Shown here: positions 5,276 through 60,164 of the stretch, piece by piece
Layout of the letters: each line of letters opens with the position of its first letter
How positions within the stretch are numbered: position 1 is the stretch's first letter
Source: Tannerella serpentiformis
Lineage (GTDB): Bacteria > Bacteroidota > Bacteroidia > Bacteroidales > Tannerellaceae
DNA length: 64,000 nucleotides
Assembly: GCF_003033925.1 (NCBI RefSeq)
Contig: NZ_CP028365.1
Coordinates: forward strand, 1,240,001-1,304,000
Direction: 5' to 3'
Program-made: the position numbers and the translations under genes
Notes under the pieces: model-generated
Told to the model about the DNA's origin: nothing
Database searches by the model: none
What the model saw: only the letters and a program-made list of their open reading frames with translations

Positions 5276-6247
5276 TTACTCCTCTGGGAGATGGATCTCA
5301 GGGCCGCCGCCGCTCTCGGGCTTCTTCGGTGGCTCGGGGGTCTCACCGCCGCCTTCGGGTTTCTTGGGCGTGTCGCCTCCGGGGGTGTCGGGCGTCTTCG
5401 GTTTTTCATCTTCCGGGAGGCGAATGTCTGGCTCTTCCTTTCTTTTCTTAGGGTTCTTCGGCGACTCGGGCTGCTTCGGTTCCTTATCCTTACCACCCTT
5501 TTTCTTCTTCGAGGAGGCTTTCTTCTGCGCGATTCGCTGGCGATACGTCGTCTTGATCATGCCGAGCACGGCGTTGATGCGGTCTATCAGCTCGCCAATA
5601 GCTTTGCGGTCATCGTCGGTGGTAGTGGACAGATAGGCGGCTTCGATATGGCGAAAGATTTGGTCAGCCGTCGCATCGTTCTTCACGCGTAACGATGCGC
5701 CAGAGGGTAGGGTGTCGGATGCGAGGTCCTTCACGCGCGATCCTCGGAGCGTAAGATATTCGTTATGGACTGTGTGGAGCATTTGGACGACCTCAGTCAG
5801 CCCAAGGGTGGCTAGATCTGCGGTGGCCGTAGGCTTATCCAGATCGTTGAGCAATCCAGAAACGTGACCTGTTTCCTCAATCAAGTTCTCACGCTGAAGA
5901 CCTTTATAGGAATCGATGACGAGGCGGAGGCGGTGAGCAGCTTTCGCGCGGGTTTCGACAGGTGAAGTCGACGCAGCGCGGATCTCTAAAAAGAGGGATG
6001 AAACGATCTCCCGCCGCTTTTTCCCTTTGGCGGTTAAGAATGGAATGGACTCCGACGGCGGCGTGTCTCGCACCGCATCTTTCTCCTGATCAATGTCCTT
6101 CTTCCAAGAGGGAATATCCGTTGTGCCCAGCAGAATCTTTTCCGGTGCGAAGGGCTGAATCAATCCATAGATTTGTTCCTGCATATCGATATGCATAGCC
6201 ATAGGATAGCGCGTTGTATCGTTCGCGATCTTTTTTATCTCTCTCAT
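5276..6247 (-). CDS. DUF6261 family protein with Pro/Lys-rich tail (copy 1)
   Basis: A 323-residue protein similar to the one at 20970-21998. The N-terminal two thirds is a helical domain of the DUF6261 type found in Bacteroidales; its function is unknown. The last 90 or so residues are low complexity (K, P, G, E) and carry two related motifs, PDIRLPE and a terminal PEIHLPEE. No signal peptide is seen. The start at 6247 (MREIKKIAND) was chosen because it falls downstream of the TACATTTG box; an in-frame ATG at 6307 would begin upstream of that box. The Lys-rich stretch KKASSKKKKGGKDK precedes the tail. It converges with the DUF4301 gene across the 128-bp array. Confidence 0.85.
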   Translation of the reverse strand: MREIKKIANDTTRYPMAMHIDMQEQIYGLIQPFAPEKILLGTTDIPSWKKDIDQEKDAVRDTPPSESIPFLTAKGKKRREIVSSLFLEIRAASTSPVETRAKAAHRLRLVIDSYKGLQRENLIEETGHVSGLLNDLDKPTATADLATLGLTEVVQMLHTVHNEYLTLRGSRVKDLASDTLPSGASLRVKNDATADQIFRHIEAAYLSTTTDDDRKAIGELIDRINAVLGMIKTTYRQRIAQKKASSKKKKGGKDKEPKQPESPKNPKKRKEEPDIRLPEDEKPKTPDTPGGDTPKKPEGGGETPEPPKKPESGGGPEIHLPEE

Positions 6248-6293
6248 CGTATTATGTTTTTGATGTGTGAATGAATCATGATGATTATGGCCG

Positions 6294-6327
6294 CAAATGT
6301 AAGTCACTTATTCGTATCCATTGCAAA
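6294..6327 (-). promoter_or_regulatory. Promoter of DUF6261 copy 1
   Basis: On the minus strand TACATTTG (plus 6294-6301) matches TAnnTTTG, and TTTG (plus 6324-6327) is a possible -33 box with a 22-bp spacer. Confidence 0.55.
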
Positions 6328-6560
6328 ACCATCTGCATTATTTTTTTTAACCCCTCTTGTTGCGGGATTAGTCCACGTCAAGCGGCGATACAATCATGTA
6401 GATCATCCCACCGATATGCGGCGTAAAGATTACCTATTGTGCCGATCATTGAATGCCTAAGCCATCCTTACATTGACTCCTATTCTATATATTTGCATAC
6501 TATTCACGGAAAATACGGTCGATAGCTTTCATTATTTGACAGCCTTTCAAGCGTCGTTTT

Positions 6561-6866
6561 TTGTATTCTGCACGCTGCAGAGTGTAAAATCAAGACTTGT
6601 TTTCTGGATTCCGCAGTGTGCAGAGCTCAAAAACAAAACTTGTTTTCAGGACTTCACAGCGTGCAGAGTCCAAAATCGGAGTTTGTTTTCGGATTTCGCA
6701 CGCTGCGAAATGCAAAAACAGAACTTGTTTTCGGACTCTGCACACTGCAGAGCGCAAAAACAAAGTCTGTTTTTGGACTCTGCACGCTGCGGAGTGGTCA
6801 TTCAAAACTTGTTTTCTGTACTCTGCACACTGCGGAATGCAAAATCGGAGTTTGTTTTTGCATCCT
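6561..6866. repeat. Seven tandem 41-43 bp units built from two alternating palindromes
   Basis: The GTTTT-containing segment recurs at 6596, 6639, 6682, 6724, 6767, 6808 and 6851. Palindrome 1 is CTCTGCACACTGCAGAG (6736-6752). Palindrome 2 is AAAACAAAGTCTGTTTT (6757-6773). Both are 17 bp with 4-bp spacers, so centres are 21 bp apart (6744, 6765, 6786). Variants of palindrome 1 keep symmetry by paired changes: TTTCGCA/TGCGAAA replaces CTCTGCA/TGCAGAG in one copy. The period is not a multiple of three, so the short ORFs across it are spurious. Confidence 0.9.
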
Positions 6867-15740: not shown

Positions 15741-15742
15741 GC

Positions 15743-16558
15743 GCCAAGAGTCACCCATCTCACGAAAAACATTCTCCTCAAAAAATGTAAGGCAAAGGAT
15801 CCGTCTCAATTATAAGCCACCTACACGCCAAGAGTCACCCATCTCACGAAAAACGTTCTCCTCAAAAAATGCAAGGCGAAGGATTCATCTCAAATACAAG
15901 CCACTTACACGCCAAAAGTCACCCATCTCACGAAAAGCATTCCCCTCAAAAAAAGCGAGGCGAAGGATCCGTCTCAATTACAAGCCACCTACACGCCAAA
16001 AGCCACCCATCTCACGAAAAACGTTCCCCTCAAAAAATGCAAGGCGAAGGATCCATCTCAAATACAAGCCACTTACACGCCAAAAGTCACCCATCTCACG
16101 AAAAACGTTCCCCTCAAAAAATGTAAGGCAAAGGATCCGTCTCAATTATAAGCCACCTACGCGCTAAGAGTCACCCATCTCACGAAAAACATTCCCCTCA
16201 AAAAATGTAAGGCAAAGGATCCGTCTCAATTATAAGCCACCTACGCGCCAAAAGTCACCCATCTCACGAAAAACATTCTCCTCAAAAAATGCGAGGCAAA
16301 GGGTCTATCTCAATTACAAGCCACTTACACGCCAAAAGTCTCCCATCTCACGAAAAACGTTCCCCTCAAAAAATGTAAGGCAAAGGATCCATCTCAAATA
16401 TAAGCCACTTACACGCCAAAAGTCACCCATCTCACGAAAAACGTTCCTCCTCAAAAATCCAGAACAGGGAATGCCTCTCGATCGGAAGGGGATGGAGCGG
16501 CGGTGATGAGACATGCTATGGAAAAATACCCTCCTCAAAAATCCAGAACAGGGAATGC
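15743..16558. repeat. Tandem array with an exact 84-bp period
   Basis: Copies start (GCCAA...) at 15743, 15827, 15911, 15995, 16079, 16163, 16247, 16331 and 16415, always 84 bp apart. Two diverged units continue in phase, with CCTCCTCAAAAATCCAG at 16446 and 16530. The period is 2 x 42. It is also 28 codons, so ORFs such as 15715-16167 arise with 28-residue repeats, but some copies carry TAA in that frame and no start context or terminator supports a gene. From 16560 to 16728 I see only a GC-rich stretch with no feature. Confidence 0.9.
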
Positions 16559-20969: not shown

Positions 20970-21998
20970 TTACTCTTCGGGCAGATGGATGTCGGGATTG
21001 CCACTGTCGCCGCCACCTTCTTTCGGTTTCTTGGGCTGCTCGCCGCCGCCCGTGCCACTGCCACCGCCTGGTTTGGCGCCACCGCCGCCCGTTCCGCCAC
21101 CTTCACCTTCTGGCTTCTTCGGTGCGTCTGGCTTTTTCGGATCTGAACCCTCTGGGAGGTGGATGTCGGGCTTGCCGTCGTCCTTCCCTGGCTTTTTAGG
21201 CTTCGGATCTTTCGGATCCTTCGGATTCTTAGGCGCATCAGGCTTCTTCTTTTTGTCCGCCGACGCCTTCTTTATCGCCTGACCCTGCCGATAGGCCGCG
21301 TCGCTCTCATGCATGCGCTGATTGAAGCGTCCGACGAGCGTCTCGATCAATGCCGGCTCGATAGGAGTCTTGCCAAAGAGGTAGTTTGACTTGAGTAAGT
21401 CCAAGATACGTTCAAAATGTTCGTCCACTTCGGCACGCACCTTCGCTGTAGCTGGCAACTTTTTCGCCGCACGCTCTTTCGTGCGCTGAAGATGCAGCTC
21501 CGCAAACTCCTTATTGAGTGTCTCCAGCTTAGTAAGTGCCGAGGTTAGGCGCAGTTTGGTCATATCAGCCGCATGCTCCGTCTTCTTCAGATCCTCCACC
21601 AAGCCGTCAATATGTGCCGTCTCCCGATCTTGCGATTCTTGCTGGATACCAGCATAACCCTTGGTCACGACATAGAGACGCTCGGCAGCCTCAACCTCAT
21701 CCGTCTCCGGCGACAGCAAAAAGCTGCGCACCTGACTAAAAATGAACAGCGCCAACCGGGTGCGCGCCTCGTCCTTCTTCTTTAGCAGTTTCGACGTAGC
21801 GCTGGCCGTAGTCTCTATGTTCAGATCCTTCTCCAGATGCAGGCTGCCGTCCCACTCCGTCTTCGCTTCTTCCGGTATGCCGATCTTAGTCAGATCAAAC
21901 TCTGCCATGATGGCATACAAAGCGCTGTGCAGTTGCACATGTTGTGCATTGTCGAGCTTATTCATCCCGACGCGTTCAATAACTAATCCCTTTTTCAT
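20970..21998 (-). CDS. DUF6261 family protein with Pro/Gly/Lys-rich tail (copy 2)
   Basis: A 342-residue paralogue of the gene at 5276-6247. The helical domain (about 1-235) has the same organisation (QVRSFLLSP, TKGYAGIQQESQDRETAHI, LETLNKEFAELHLQRTK). The tail (about 245-342) is rich in K, P, D and G and carries PDIHLPE twice, once internally and once as the terminal PDIHLPEE. Copy 1 has the same two-motif tail. The start at 21998 (MKKGLVIERVG) follows AAAGACGAG; an ATG at 22052 is possible. No signal peptide is seen. Function unknown. Confidence 0.85.
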   Translation of the reverse strand: MKKGLVIERVGMNKLDNAQHVQLHSALYAIMAEFDLTKIGIPEEAKTEWDGSLHLEKDLNIETTASATSKLLKKKDEARTRLALFIFSQVRSFLLSPETDEVEAAERLYVVTKGYAGIQQESQDRETAHIDGLVEDLKKTEHAADMTKLRLTSALTKLETLNKEFAELHLQRTKERAAKKLPATAKVRAEVDEHFERILDLLKSNYLFGKTPIEPALIETLVGRFNQRMHESDAAYRQGQAIKKASADKKKKPDAPKNPKDPKDPKPKKPGKDDGKPDIHLPEGSDPKKPDAPKKPEGEGGGTGGGGAKPGGGSGTGGGEQPKKPKEGGGDSGNPDIHLPEE

Positions 21999-22109
21999 CT
22001 CGTCTTTCTTGATTGATAATGATACATTTACTGTTTGTGTTATGGTGATCAATGATGCCTCAGAAGGCCCTCACGAAGAGGAAATCCCGAAGCGCAATAC
22101 ATTTCAAAG

Positions 22110-22336
22110 TTCCATCTTAGATGGAAGTCCAAAACGCGGCGCGTTTCACTGTTCCATCTTAGATGGAAGTCCAAAACGCGGCGCGTTTCACTGTTCCATC
22201 TTAGATGGAAGTCCAAAACGCGGCGCGTTTTACTGTTCCATCTTAGGTGGAAGTCCAAAACGCGGCGCGTTTCATTGTTCCATCTTAGGTGGAAGTCCAA
22301 AACGCGGCGCGTTTTACTGTTCCATCTTAGATGGAG
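22110..22336. repeat. Six exact 42-bp repeats of two 17-bp palindromes
   Basis: Units start at 22110, 22152, 22194, 22236, 22278 and 22320. Each is TTCCATCTTAGATGGAA, 4 bp, AAAACGCGGCGCGTTTC or similar, 4 bp. Centres alternate every 21 bp (22118, 22139, 22160). Two copies have TTCCATCTTAGGTGGAA, which still pairs through G-T. As 42 is 14 codons, spurious ORFs with 14-residue repeats cross it. Confidence 0.95.
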
Positions 22337-22499: not shown

Positions 22500-23450
22500 C
22501 AGCAAACACCCCACACCTTTTGCGCAGGATAATTCCTACCCGGAGACACGAAAACGCACCATATTTTCCACCTCCCATCCCATAGCATCCCCTAAAGGCA
22601 GCCTATTTTTCAGGTAACGCGGCAAAACATACCCTGACCGCGATCATTTTTCGGCCGTCAGGGTAGGGGCGTATGGCATACGCCCCACCCAATGGCCCCG
22701 CAAGGGACAAGAATGCGCATCGGCGATCGATCATTTGGATCATTCGCCCCATAAATGGGACGTTTGTGGGGCGTATGCTTTTGCGCCCTACACGGGGACA
22801 CGAAAACGCGGTGCGTTTTTCATATCCCACCCCATAGCATCCCCCAAAGGCAGCCTGTTTTTCGAGTAACACCGCAGAACATGCCCCGACCGCGATCATT
22901 TTTCGGCCGTCAGGGTAGGGGCGTATGGCATACGCCCCACAAAGCGCCATCCCATAGATGGCGAATGCCTGTCCACGACCAAAGGCAGGGCCCTCGCCCT
23001 CCTTCGGAGGGACGTTTGTGGGGCGTATTCAATACGCCCCTACACAGGGACATAAAAACGCGCCGCGGTTTATGCATACCACAACCGTGAAATAATCAAA
23101 CGCACCACATTTTCTACCTCCCACCCCATAGCATCCCCTAAAGGCAGCCTATTTTTCGTATCCCACCGCAAAACATACCCCGACCGCGATCATTTTTCGA
23201 CCGTCAGGGTAGGGGCGTATGGCATACGTCCCACAAAGCGCCATCCCATGGATGGCGAATGCCTGTACACGACCAAAGGCAGGGCCCTCGCCCTCCTTCG
23301 AAGGGTCGTTTGTGAGGCGTATGCAATACGCCCCTACACAGGGATACGTAAACGCGGTGCGGTTAGGGCATACCACAACCGTGAAACAATCAAACGCACC
23401 ACGGTTCACGCATTCCATCGCACGGAATGCCCCGACCGCAACGCGGTTGA
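22500..23450. repeat. Composite GTAGGGGCG array, left part
   Basis: GTAGGGGC recurs at 22663, 22915 and 23209, spacings of 252 and 294 bp (6 x 42 and 7 x 42). The 252-bp stretch from 22663 can be cut into six 42-mers, several of which share a GTTTTTC or ATTTTTCGG core, so the region looks like a diverged form of the neighbouring 42-bp array. Full inverted elements (left GTAGGGGCGTAT, right ATACGCCCCTAC) are embedded. No CDS is supported between 22000 and 23612. Confidence 0.8.
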
Positions 23451-24229: not shown

Positions 24230-25800
24230 GCCAGCATGGCGCCGCGTTTTTCATATTCCACCTCAAAACATACCCCGGCCGCGATCATTTTTCGGCCGTC
24301 AGGGTAGGGGCGTATGGCATACGCCCCACCGAATGGCCCCGCAGGGGACAAGAATGCGTATCGACGATCGATCATTCGGATCATTCGCCCCATAAATGGG
24401 TCGTTTGTGGGGCGTATGCAATACGCCCCTACACAGGGACATGAAAACGTACCACATTTTCCACCTCCCACCCCATAGCATCCCCTAAAGGCAGCCTGTT
24501 TTTCGTATTCCACCTCAAAACATGCCCCGGCCGTGATCATTTTTCGGGTAACGTGGTAGGGGCGTATGGCATACGCCCCACAAAATGGCCCCGCAGGGGA
24601 CAAGAATGCGCATCGACAATCGATCATTCGGATCCTTCGCCCCATAAATGGGACGTTTGTAGGGCGTATTCAATACGCCCCTACACAGGGACATGAAAAC
24701 GCGGTGCGGTTAGGGCATACCACAACCGTGAGACAATCTAACGCACCACATTTTCCACCTCCCACCCCATAGCATCCCCAAAAGGCGGTCCGTTTTTCAG
24801 GTAACGCGGCAGAACATGCCCCGAACGCGATCATTTTTCGACTGTCAGGGTAGGGGCATATGGCATACGCCCCACCAAATGGCCCCGCAGGGGACAAGAA
24901 TGCGTATCAGCGATCGATCATTTGGATCATTCGCCCCATAAATGGGTCGCCGGTGGGGCGTATGCAATACGCCCCTACACAGGGACATGTAAACGCACCA
25001 CATTTTCCACCTCCCACCCCATAGCATGCCCCAAAGGCAGCCTATTTTTCGTATCCCACCGCAAAACATGCCCCGAACACGATCATTTTTCGGGTAACAC
25101 GGTAGGGGCGTATGGCATACGCCCCACAAAATGGCCCCGCAGGGGACAAGAATGCGTATCGACAATCGATCATTCGGATCATTCGCCCCATAAATGGGAC
25201 GTTTGTAGGGCGTATGCAATACGCCCCTACATGAGGACACGAAAATGCGGTGCGGTTTATGCATACCACAACCGTGAAACAATCAAACGCGCCACATTTT
25301 CCACCTCCCACCTCATAGCATCCCCTAAACGCAGCCCGTTTTTCAGGTAACGCGGCAGAACATACCCCGACCGCGATCATTTTTCGGCCGTCAGGATAGG
25401 GGCGTATGGCATACGCCCCACAAAGCGCCATCCCATGGATGGCGAATGCCTGTCCACGACCAATGGCAGGACTCTCGCCCTCCTTCGGAGGGTCGTTTGT
25501 AGGGCGTATTCAATACGCCCCTACACAGGGATACGTAAACGCACCACATTTTCCACCTCCCACCCCATAGCATCCCCTAAAGGCAGCCTATTTTTCAGGT
25601 AACACGGCAAAACATACCCCGAACGCGGCGCGTTTTTCACATGCTACAACCGTGAAACAATCCAACGCGCTGCGTTTTACGCATTTCACCGAATGATGTG
25701 CCCGATACATATCACGTTGGGATATATTGTAATCGTGGAACGACTGGGGCGCACTACGTTTCACGCATTCTGCGGCATGGCATGATCTCAACGCGCTGCG
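24230..25800. repeat. Composite GTAGGGGCG array, right part
   Basis: GTAGGGGC-type starts at 24304, 24556, 24850, 25102 and 25396 give spacings of 252, 294, 252 and 294 bp. The internal modules are the same as in the left part: CCCCATAAATGGG, CCATAGCATCCCC, TTTTTCGG. From about 25620 the register continues with 42-bp units such as AACGCGGCGCGTTTTTCA and AACGCGCTGCGTTTTACG. No CDS is supported here. Confidence 0.8.
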
Positions 25801-34224: not shown

Positions 34225-34850
34225 GCCCATTCCACGAAACCGAAAACAACTCTCTATCTCAATCTCCGGACACTCCACGAATCAAAAAACTGATTTCGTT
34301 TCATTACCTCGGACATTCCACGAAGCCAAAAACAACTCTCTATCTCAATCTCCGGACACTTCGTGAATCAAAAAACAGATTCCGTTTCGTTACCTCGGAC
34401 ATTCCACGAAGCCAAAAACAACTTTCTGTCTCAATCTCCGGACACTCCGCGAAACCAAAAACGAATCTCAATTTCGATCCCCAGGCACTATGCAAAGCGA
34501 AAAACGAATCTCGATTTTGACTTCCGAGTACTCCGGAAGCAAAAAATGAATTCCGATTTTGCTTTCAGAGTGTCCGGGAAGCGAAAAATGAATTACGATT
34601 TGCGTCTCCGGACACTCAGTGAAGCGAAAAATGAATTACGATTTCGCTTTCGGAGTATCCGGGAAGCCAAAAATGAATTGCGATTTCGCATTTTGGGTAC
34701 TCCGGAAGGCCAAAATGAATCTCGATTTCGCTTCCCGGAGTGTCCGAAAGCCCAAAATGAATTCCGATTTTGCTTCACTGAGTGTCCGAAGTCGCCAAAA
34801 TGAATTACGATTTTGCTTCCCGGAGTGTCTGTGAAGCAAAATCGAGATTC
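34225..34850. repeat. About 15 tandem units of 41-43 bp
   Basis: GGACACTCC-type cores at 34268, 34311, 34354, 34397, 34440 and 34483 are 43 bp apart. ATGAATT cores at 34547, 34588, 34631, 34673, 34715, 34757 and 34800 are 41-43 bp apart. Units in the second half carry stems such as CTTCCG/CGGAAG, GCGAAA/TTTCGC and CATTTTGG/CCAAAATG. The array lies between converging carB and hisS. Short ORFs here are periodic artefacts. Confidence 0.85.
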
Positions 34851-47272: not shown

Positions 47273-48160
47273 TTTGCGGGAGTCCCGCAAGTCCCACGGG
47301 AAATGCTTTGGCGTTTGCGGGAGTCCCGCAAGTCCCACGGGAAATGCTTTGGCGTTTGCGGAAGCCCCGCAAGTCTCTCGAGAAACTTTTTGGCGTTTGC
47401 GGAAGCCCCGCAAGTGTCTCGAAGAACTTTTTGGTGTTTGCGGGAGTCCCGCAAGTGTCTCGAAAAACTTTTTGGCGTTTGCGGGAGTCCCGCAAGTCTC
47501 TCGGAAAACTTTTTGGCCTCTGCAGGAATGCTGCAAACGCCACGAAAAACTTTTTGGCCTCTGCAGGAATGCTGCAAATGCCTCGAAAAACTTTTTAGCC
47601 TCTGCAGGAATGCTGCAAATGCCACGAAAAACTTTTTGGCCTCTGCAGGAATGCTGCAAACGCCACGAAAAACTTTTTGGTCTCTGCAGGAACGCTGCAA
47701 ACGCCGCGAAAAACTTTTTGGACTCTGCAGGAACGCTGCAAATGCCACGAAAAACTTTTTGGCCTCTGCAGGAATGCTGCAAACGCCGCGAAAAACTTTT
47801 TGGTCTTTGCAGGAATGCTGCAAACGCCAAAATGGAGAAAAGCGCTCTTGCAGAAGTTCTGCAAACACCAAAATGGAGAAAAGCGCCCTTGCAGAAGTTC
47901 TGCAAACGTCAAAATGGGGAAAAGCGTCCTTGCAGAAGTTCTGCAAACACCAAAATGGAGAAAAGCATCCTTGCAGGAGTTCTGCAAACACCAAAATGGA
48001 GAAAAGGGCGCTTGCAGGAGTTCTGCAAACGCCAAAATGGGGAAAAGCGCTCTTGCAGAAGTTCTGCAAAGGCCAAAATGGAGAAAAGCGCTTTTGCAGA
48101 AGTTCTGCAAACACCAAAATGGGGAAAAGCGTCCTTGCAGAAGTTCTGCAAGGGCACCAC
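47273..48160. repeat. About 21 tandem 41-bp units with changing palindromes
   Basis: TTTGCGG-type starts at 47273, 47314, 47355, 47396, 47437 and 47478, then TCTGCAGG at 47519 and 47560 and so on, always 41 bp apart. The main palindrome changes along the array but keeps symmetry: TTGCGGGAGTCCCGCAA, then TGCAGGAATGCTGCA, then TTGCAGAAGTTCTGCAA. In the middle section a second dyad, GCCA...AAA/TTT...TGGC, sits 20.5 bp from the first (centres 47528 and 47548.5). As 41 is not a multiple of three, long ORFs appear on both strands; they are artefacts. Confidence 0.92.
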
Positions 48161-59788: not shown

Positions 59789-59944
59789 TATAAGTAGTAG
59801 TTAGAGTAATCTCGGAGTAGTAAGTAGTAGTCAGACATGGTATCGGATCGCTCTCAACGCATCCATATACCAGATAACCGGCGGCAAAGATAGGCGGGAT
59901 GGGCGGGGAACACCTTGTCGTGAATGTTTGTCCCTCCTTCCGAG

Positions 59945-60152
59945 GGGTCGGAAAACGTCAAAACGCGCCGCTGAACGTTTCCGACGCGTCGGAAAGCATC
60001 AAAACACGCCGCTGAACGTTTCCGAGGCCTCGGAAAGCTCCAAAACACGCCGCTGAACGTTTCCGACGCGTCGGAAAGCTCCAAAACACGCCGCTGAACA
60101 TTTCCGAGGCCTCGGAAGGCTCAAAACACGTCGCTGAACGTTTCCGAGGCCT
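59945..60152. repeat. Five 40-41 bp units with exchangeable perfect palindromes
   Basis: CTGAACG cores at 59971, 60012, 60053, 60094 and 60134. Each is followed by an 18-bp palindrome: TTTCCGACGCGTCGGAAA (59978-59995) or TTTCCGAGGCCTCGGAAA (60019-60036), alternating along the array. The two forms differ at four positions yet both are perfect. The array lies between divergent ychF and the glycosyltransferase gene. Confidence 0.92.
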
Positions 60153-60164
60153 CGGGGCGGCTGC

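Follow-up and report, generated by a model that had tools for sequence, protein, structure and literature searches.

The window analysed here, a 64,000-nucleotide stretch of the Tannerella serpentiformis chromosome, contains a tandem repeat array at positions 22102–22336, with a gene of the DUF6261 family (PF19775) next to it. The gene (20970–21998, minus strand) is oriented away from the array, and its product scores 133.3 bits for DUF6261 in Pfam against a curated cut-off of 27, with an E value of 9e-39 on the longer reading frame. Its start codon is likely to be the ATG at 21998, although a TTG at 22052 is possible. The encoded protein has a lysine/proline-rich linker and ends in NPDIHLPEE. 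A spacer of 103 bp (21999–22101, minus strand) separates the ATG from the array, and a motif scan of this spacer revealed no TAnnTTTG promoter motif.

Tandem Repeats Finder described the array as 5.6 copies of a 42-bp unit (95%). Dyad analysis of positions 22110–22336 resolved 11 dyads of two alternating types, with centres at 22118, 22139, 22160, 22181, 22202, 22223, 22244, 22265, 22286, 22307 and 22328, so that the pitch is exactly 21 bp throughout. This confirms the first-pass annotation, which had described 17-bp palindromes separated by 4-bp spacers with one dyad per 21 bp. The type A dyad, TTCCATCTTAGATGGAA, first occurs at 22110–22126 and again from 22152, 22194, 22236, 22278 and 22320; three copies are perfect and three have one pair changed. 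The type B dyad, AAAACGCGGCGCGTTTT (with a variant ending in C, ...TTTC), first occurs as AAAACGCGGCGCGTTTC at 22131–22147 and again from 22173, 22215, 22257 and 22299, with two perfect copies and three with one pair changed. When both strands of the window were searched for the 37-bp A–spacer–B pattern, allowing up to three mismatches, nine matches were obtained compared with 0.00 expected from 100 dinucleotide shuffles. The 4-bp spacers between neighbouring dyads are the same in every unit instead of being unique, and a CRISPR array was rejected on these grounds; a PADLOC search gave only scattered weak matches with one member each.

The window holds several related loci. A second DUF6261 gene (5276–6307, minus strand), recognized from a DUF6261 match at G000:C1:1245573-1246034 and its open reading frame, has a degenerate array of 42–43 bp units upstream (6556–6860). 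Other arrays have no DUF6261 gene beside them. Those of 42–43 bp at 34228–34841 match sequence that flanks the DUF6261 gene at G000:C1:1790537 on its upstream side. Between converging genes, about 880 bp of 41-bp units in two adjoining variants (47273–48151) match the array that precedes the DUF6261 gene at G000:C1:1647120 and are related to that one gene-linked family, and a further 41-bp array, the unit of which holds a perfect TTCCGAGGCCTCGGAA dyad, lies between diverging genes (59938–60155). An 84-bp unit repeated 8.5 times (90%) occupies 15742–16457, between co-directional genes and adjoining an aspartokinase/homoserine dehydrogenase gene. Repeats of 252 and 294 bp, equal to six and seven times 42 bp, are found at 22573–23402 and 24246–25312 and contain the dyad GGCGTATGGCATACGCC; akin to these, arrays of 84, 210 and 252 bp are present elsewhere in the genome. 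The 252- and 294-bp repeats look like higher-order forms of the 21-bp phasing.

Arrays and dyad geometry across the genome

To place this locus in context, we sampled 464 kb of the 3.01-Mb chromosome, comprising the window and 20 roughly evenly placed stretches of 20 kb. The sample contained 122 tandem arrays with many different unit sequences, and tandem arrays of all periods made up 8% of the sampled DNA. Array periods clustered at 40–43 bp and at multiples of this value (82, 84, 123, 126, 168, 210, 252 and 294 bp). Arrays of 40–43 bp with at least three copies numbered 68, which by extrapolation gives a genome-wide total of roughly 440. When genes were called with a simple codon-usage script, none of the 68 fell inside a called gene, and they were distributed over tandem, diverging and converging gene pairs in roughly the proportions seen for intergenic regions overall. 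A coding tandem repeat was rejected, since periods of 40, 41 and 43 bp were found beside 42 bp and the sampled arrays lay outside called genes. Dyad-to-dyad distances in intergenic DNA peaked at 21, 42, 63, 84, 105 and 126 bp.

The units found upstream of DUF6261 genes are close to their own reverse complements (0.583 compared with 0.467 ± 0.006 for shuffled units), and a second peak of dyad symmetry occurs exactly 20.5–21 bp, or half a unit, from the strongest dyad. Within a dyad the symmetry is strong from 3 to 8 bp from the centre, weaker at the centre itself and absent beyond 9 bp; a centre on a base is twice as common as one between two bases. Taken together with the half-unit spacing of the dyads, this places half-sites alternately about 11 and 10 bp apart, that is, one per helical turn. 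The pitch of 20.5–21 bp is kept across many bacterial families despite unrelated unit sequences: the sequence differs almost every time, and what stays the same is the period, the spacing of the dyads and the position. Loci L042 and L043, which are near-identical duplicates, differ by 84 bp, exactly two 42-bp units. In copies of the window array family at 523 kb, 1213 kb and 2612 kb, dyad B is kept and dyad A is altered on both arms together.

Association of the arrays with DUF6261 genes

The genome encodes 55 DUF6261 proteins. Among the best-scoring DUF6261 genes, which were not random draws, an array was present within 400 bp upstream in 35/54 cases in this genome (23/30 and 12/24), 22/29 in congeneric species and 18/28 in other families of the order; the corresponding downstream counts were 8/54 (4/30 and 4/24), 1/29 and 1/28. 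In a distant complete genome (G212), which has 38 DUF6261 genes, 24 of the 30 compared had an array within 500 bp upstream and none had one downstream. The background rate of upstream arrays for any gene was 60/298 in this genome, 1/220 in the congeners and 19/261 in G212, giving Fisher P-values of 8e-11, 2e-24 and 4e-18, respectively; the G212 count and its background use different limits (500 versus 400 bp), too small a difference to explain the effect. A Parabacteroides distasonis plasmid carries a DUF6261 gene with a 42-bp array of four copies about 100 bp upstream, and a DUF6261 gene from another class of the phylum has a 41-bp array of 4.8 copies. No array was detected for about one-third of the DUF6261 genes. 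Spacers between array and ATG can be as short as 28 bp.

The architecture of 40–43 bp units with two dyads upstream of DUF6261 is thus both genome-wide and order-wide, a context that, like the DUF6261 link and the gene-free copies, lay outside the first-pass annotation. Relatives in which the same genes carried arrays of unrelated spacing, or arrays devoid of dyads, would have spoken against the reading of the first-pass annotation; the comparison across species came out in its favour. In a number of congeneric drafts, including G011, G012, G033 and G050, many of the DUF6261 matches are only a few hundred bases or less from the end of a contig, as would happen if arrays interrupted assembly; copy numbers in draft genomes may be too low.

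Private array families and sequence turnover

Clustering of the units gave many small families, and most of the larger ones hold one DUF6261-linked member. For 40 of the 59 gene-free arrays sampled in this genome, a match was found in the DNA flanking a DUF6261 gene on its upstream side, usually at a single paralog, and 2/59 match a downstream flank. Array families in this genome thus seem to be private, each with a gene-linked member. In G212 the same flank matching was seen for about 5 of 17 arrays, with 30 of its 38 DUF6261 genes compared. We searched the flanks of gene-free arrays for DUF6261 coding remnants and found none. The gene-free arrays are thus not dead gene loci, and their origin as the remains of lost DUF6261 genes was rejected.

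Array similarity and protein similarity are unrelated beyond recent duplicates. For example, paralogs L023 and L031 have a protein similarity of 0.77 and unrelated arrays, and overall the unit sequence turns over much faster than that of the protein. Because the two do not track each other, duplication of the array along with its gene was rejected as a full account, and no protein-to-sequence code is visible.

DNA sites or RNA hairpins

The first-pass annotation had offered two readings of the dyads, a series of DNA sites bound cooperatively by a dimeric protein or a chain of hairpins in RNA. On the sense strand, dyad mismatches favoured G-T in 22 arrays compared with A-C in 32, and the data therefore give no support for selection on RNA pairing. 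The Rfam hits were limited to eukaryotic microRNA models with scores well short of the gathering thresholds, which is unsurprising for a palindromic repeat. Upstream of arrays, the promoter motif TAnnTTTG is enriched (23 compared with 5.1 expected; the reverse strand has 11). Enrichment is mild in the spacer between array and gene (13 compared with 5.2 expected) and absent within arrays. The upstream enrichment suggests that at some loci the array probably lies within a transcribed leader. The placement of the motif and the lack of a G-T bias are compatible with either an operator or a roadblock.

Since the half-sites are one helical turn apart and there is no G-U bias, the dyads look like DNA sites rather than RNA hairpins. 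Of the two readings, that of a chain of hairpins is weakened by the mismatch counts, though in many cases the array seems to have the promoter on one side and the start codon on the other. Sites for a cooperative dimeric protein are the best fit to the conserved pitch, the spacing of the half-sites and the two-unit difference between L042 and L043, with binding itself as the presumed element.

Properties of the DUF6261 protein

An AlphaFold2 model of DUF6261 is all-helical and of high confidence (mean pLDDT 95, pTM 0.73). Foldseek comparison of the model with the PDB and with viral models gave nothing at E ≤ 0.001, a DUF6261 profile had no credible match among PDB sequences, and by these structure and profile comparisons the domain has no recognizable DNA-binding fold. 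DUF6261 was the sole Pfam family above cut-off in these proteins; hhalign gave no signal of internal duplication, and no DUF6261 protein was found in phages. The mean net charge of the domain is −1.4, about neutral. Such a value would not be expected of a protein that binds DNA strongly, and this is the chief reservation about binding by DUF6261.

A PDIxLP motif is located near the C-terminus in 36/54 paralogs in this genome, mostly after a proline/lysine-rich linker. Tails of this type are associated with having an array (Fisher P = 0.003) and are absent from the relatives examined. Among this genome's own DUF6261 genes (L017–L046 and L144–L167), those with the C-terminal motif conserve it as PDIxLPEE, usually behind a long linker, and it is possibly a shared docking tail. 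Many congeneric DUF6261 proteins (L073, L078, L079, L081–L083, L085, L086, L088 and L091–L095) have a C-terminal domain of about 70–90 residues with a pattern like YTGKPVTP...FTxTYRNN...GTA...GKGxYxGxxTVTFNI, for which Pfam gave no match in the two proteins tested.

Discussion

We favour, at roughly even odds (about 0.5), a role for the array as a cooperative operator with multiple sites, which would probably serve its own DUF6261 protein and have additional copies scattered through the intergenic regions. The array is one member of a module that consists of a DUF6261 gene and an upstream tandem array of 40–43 bp units, in which two dyads per unit give a dyad every 20.5–21 bp, or two helical turns, and a half-site about every turn, so that dyads and half-sites all lie on one face of the DNA. 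A sequence-specific protein, most likely that encoded by the neighbouring DUF6261 gene, may assemble cooperatively on the array as a row of dimers. The DUF6261 protein would then control its own expression and might also bind the other arrays of its family around the genome, marking or organizing the regions concerned; every paralog would have a sequence private to it. This proposal builds on features that were seen directly, namely the geometry, which is conserved, the location upstream of the genes, the rapid change in unit sequence and, in this genome, the matching of families. Several observations weigh against an operator: the DUF6261 domain is not basic and lacks a recognizable DNA-binding fold, close paralogs (0.77) have unrelated arrays, about a third of the genes have no detected array, and gene-free arrays are found in every type of intergenic region, those separating converging genes among them, which is atypical of operators. 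More tentatively, DUF6261 may be a large family of sequence-specific array binders, in which every paralog is paired with a fast-evolving satellite family of its own. This would amount to tens of orthogonal protein–DNA filament systems per chromosome, covering several percent of the genome and organizing or silencing the marked regions.

The abundance of gene-free copies raises the question of whether DUF6261 or a partner copies or maintains its cognate array family, in the manner of REPIN–RAYT systems, with the gene-linked array as founder. Such dispersal would fit the existence of families in which a single gene-linked array is accompanied by several gene-free copies, all of them intergenic and in every orientation, as well as the lack of DUF6261 remnants in the flanks of gene-free arrays. 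We nevertheless consider it unlikely, given an all-helical bundle with no catalytic signature and no transposase or nuclease relative, arrays for which no target-site duplications or ends are defined, and the fact that REPINs are not strictly phased tandem arrays. Equally doubtful in our judgement is a shared host protein, either a nucleoid protein or a factor recognizing cruciforms or dyads, that reads geometry rather than sequence, DUF6261 being merely a regulated gene. Conserved geometry with unconserved sequence, unrelated arrays beside close paralogs and the non-basic domain are all in line with this idea, but it leaves unexplained the sequence matches between gene-free arrays and particular DUF6261-linked ones, and why this one gene family carries arrays in relatives.

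Control of translation or decay of the DUF6261 message by a chain of hairpins in its leader seems improbable. The enrichment of TAnnTTTG upstream of arrays and the shortest array-to-ATG spacers speak for it, whereas the absence of a G-T preference, the mild enrichment of the promoter motif in the spacer too, the location of some gene-free arrays between converging genes and the lack of a credible Rfam match speak against it. We regard as very improbable a neutral or contingency minisatellite, in which slippage would alter the number of units and so tune or phase-vary the adjacent gene, the dyads being incidental. Duplicates that differ by whole units and the rapid turnover of sequence would fit this reading, but a fixed period of 40–43 bp, a two-dyad anatomy and an upstream position across many families would be unexpected under neutral slippage.

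Whichever protein is involved, an uncharacterized protein family is tied to a precise and unusual DNA architecture across an order that includes common gut and oral bacteria. If DUF6261 proteins bind the arrays, a single cell would naturally contain many orthogonal pairs of a protein and the DNA that it recognizes, and much of the intergenic DNA in genomes like this one would be accounted for. Even if another protein binds, conserved geometry combined with freely changing sequence would represent a new type of constraint on bacterial intergenic DNA.

Comparison with known systems

Plasmid iterons and partition centromeres of the ParR–parC and StbA type are helically phased repeats upstream of the gene for their binder, an arrangement that leads to autoregulation, and they belong to single plasmid replication or partition loci. 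The arrays described here resemble them in having helically phased repeated sites upstream of the gene for a putative binder; they differ in comprising about 55 chromosomal loci and hundreds of dispersed arrays, and in the protein, which is without known homology. In the open (non-subscription) literature we found no account of DUF6261 function, the DUF6261 mention found there being unrelated, and no description of 42-bp dyad arrays.

REPIN–RAYT systems, REP elements with TnpA-REP (PMC3116915, PMC8266576), present a similar situation, in which members of a gene family each have seemingly private palindromic intergenic repeats, some of them beside the gene. Dispersed intergenic palindromic repeats related to the gene-flanking ones, which characterize those systems, are found here as well (40/59). 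However, DUF6261 is not a Y1/HUH transposase, as judged from the Pfam assignment to DUF6261 only and a helical model with no transposase match, and the repeats of this genome are 42-bp two-dyad tandem arrays locked to the helical pitch, with tens of paralogs per genome. BrickBuilt, a minisatellite/MITE of Porphyromonas gingivalis, is one sequence family with a 23-nt unit, a leader and a tail (PMC4596501). It is likewise a tandem minisatellite that is always intergenic in a Bacteroidales genome, but the units here are of 40–43 bp with two dyads, and the available portion of that report mentions no partner gene for BrickBuilt. REPIN–RAYT and BrickBuilt, the nearest published systems in the open literature searched, both fail in defining features here, and the arrays together with DUF6261 point to an undescribed DNA-recognition system.
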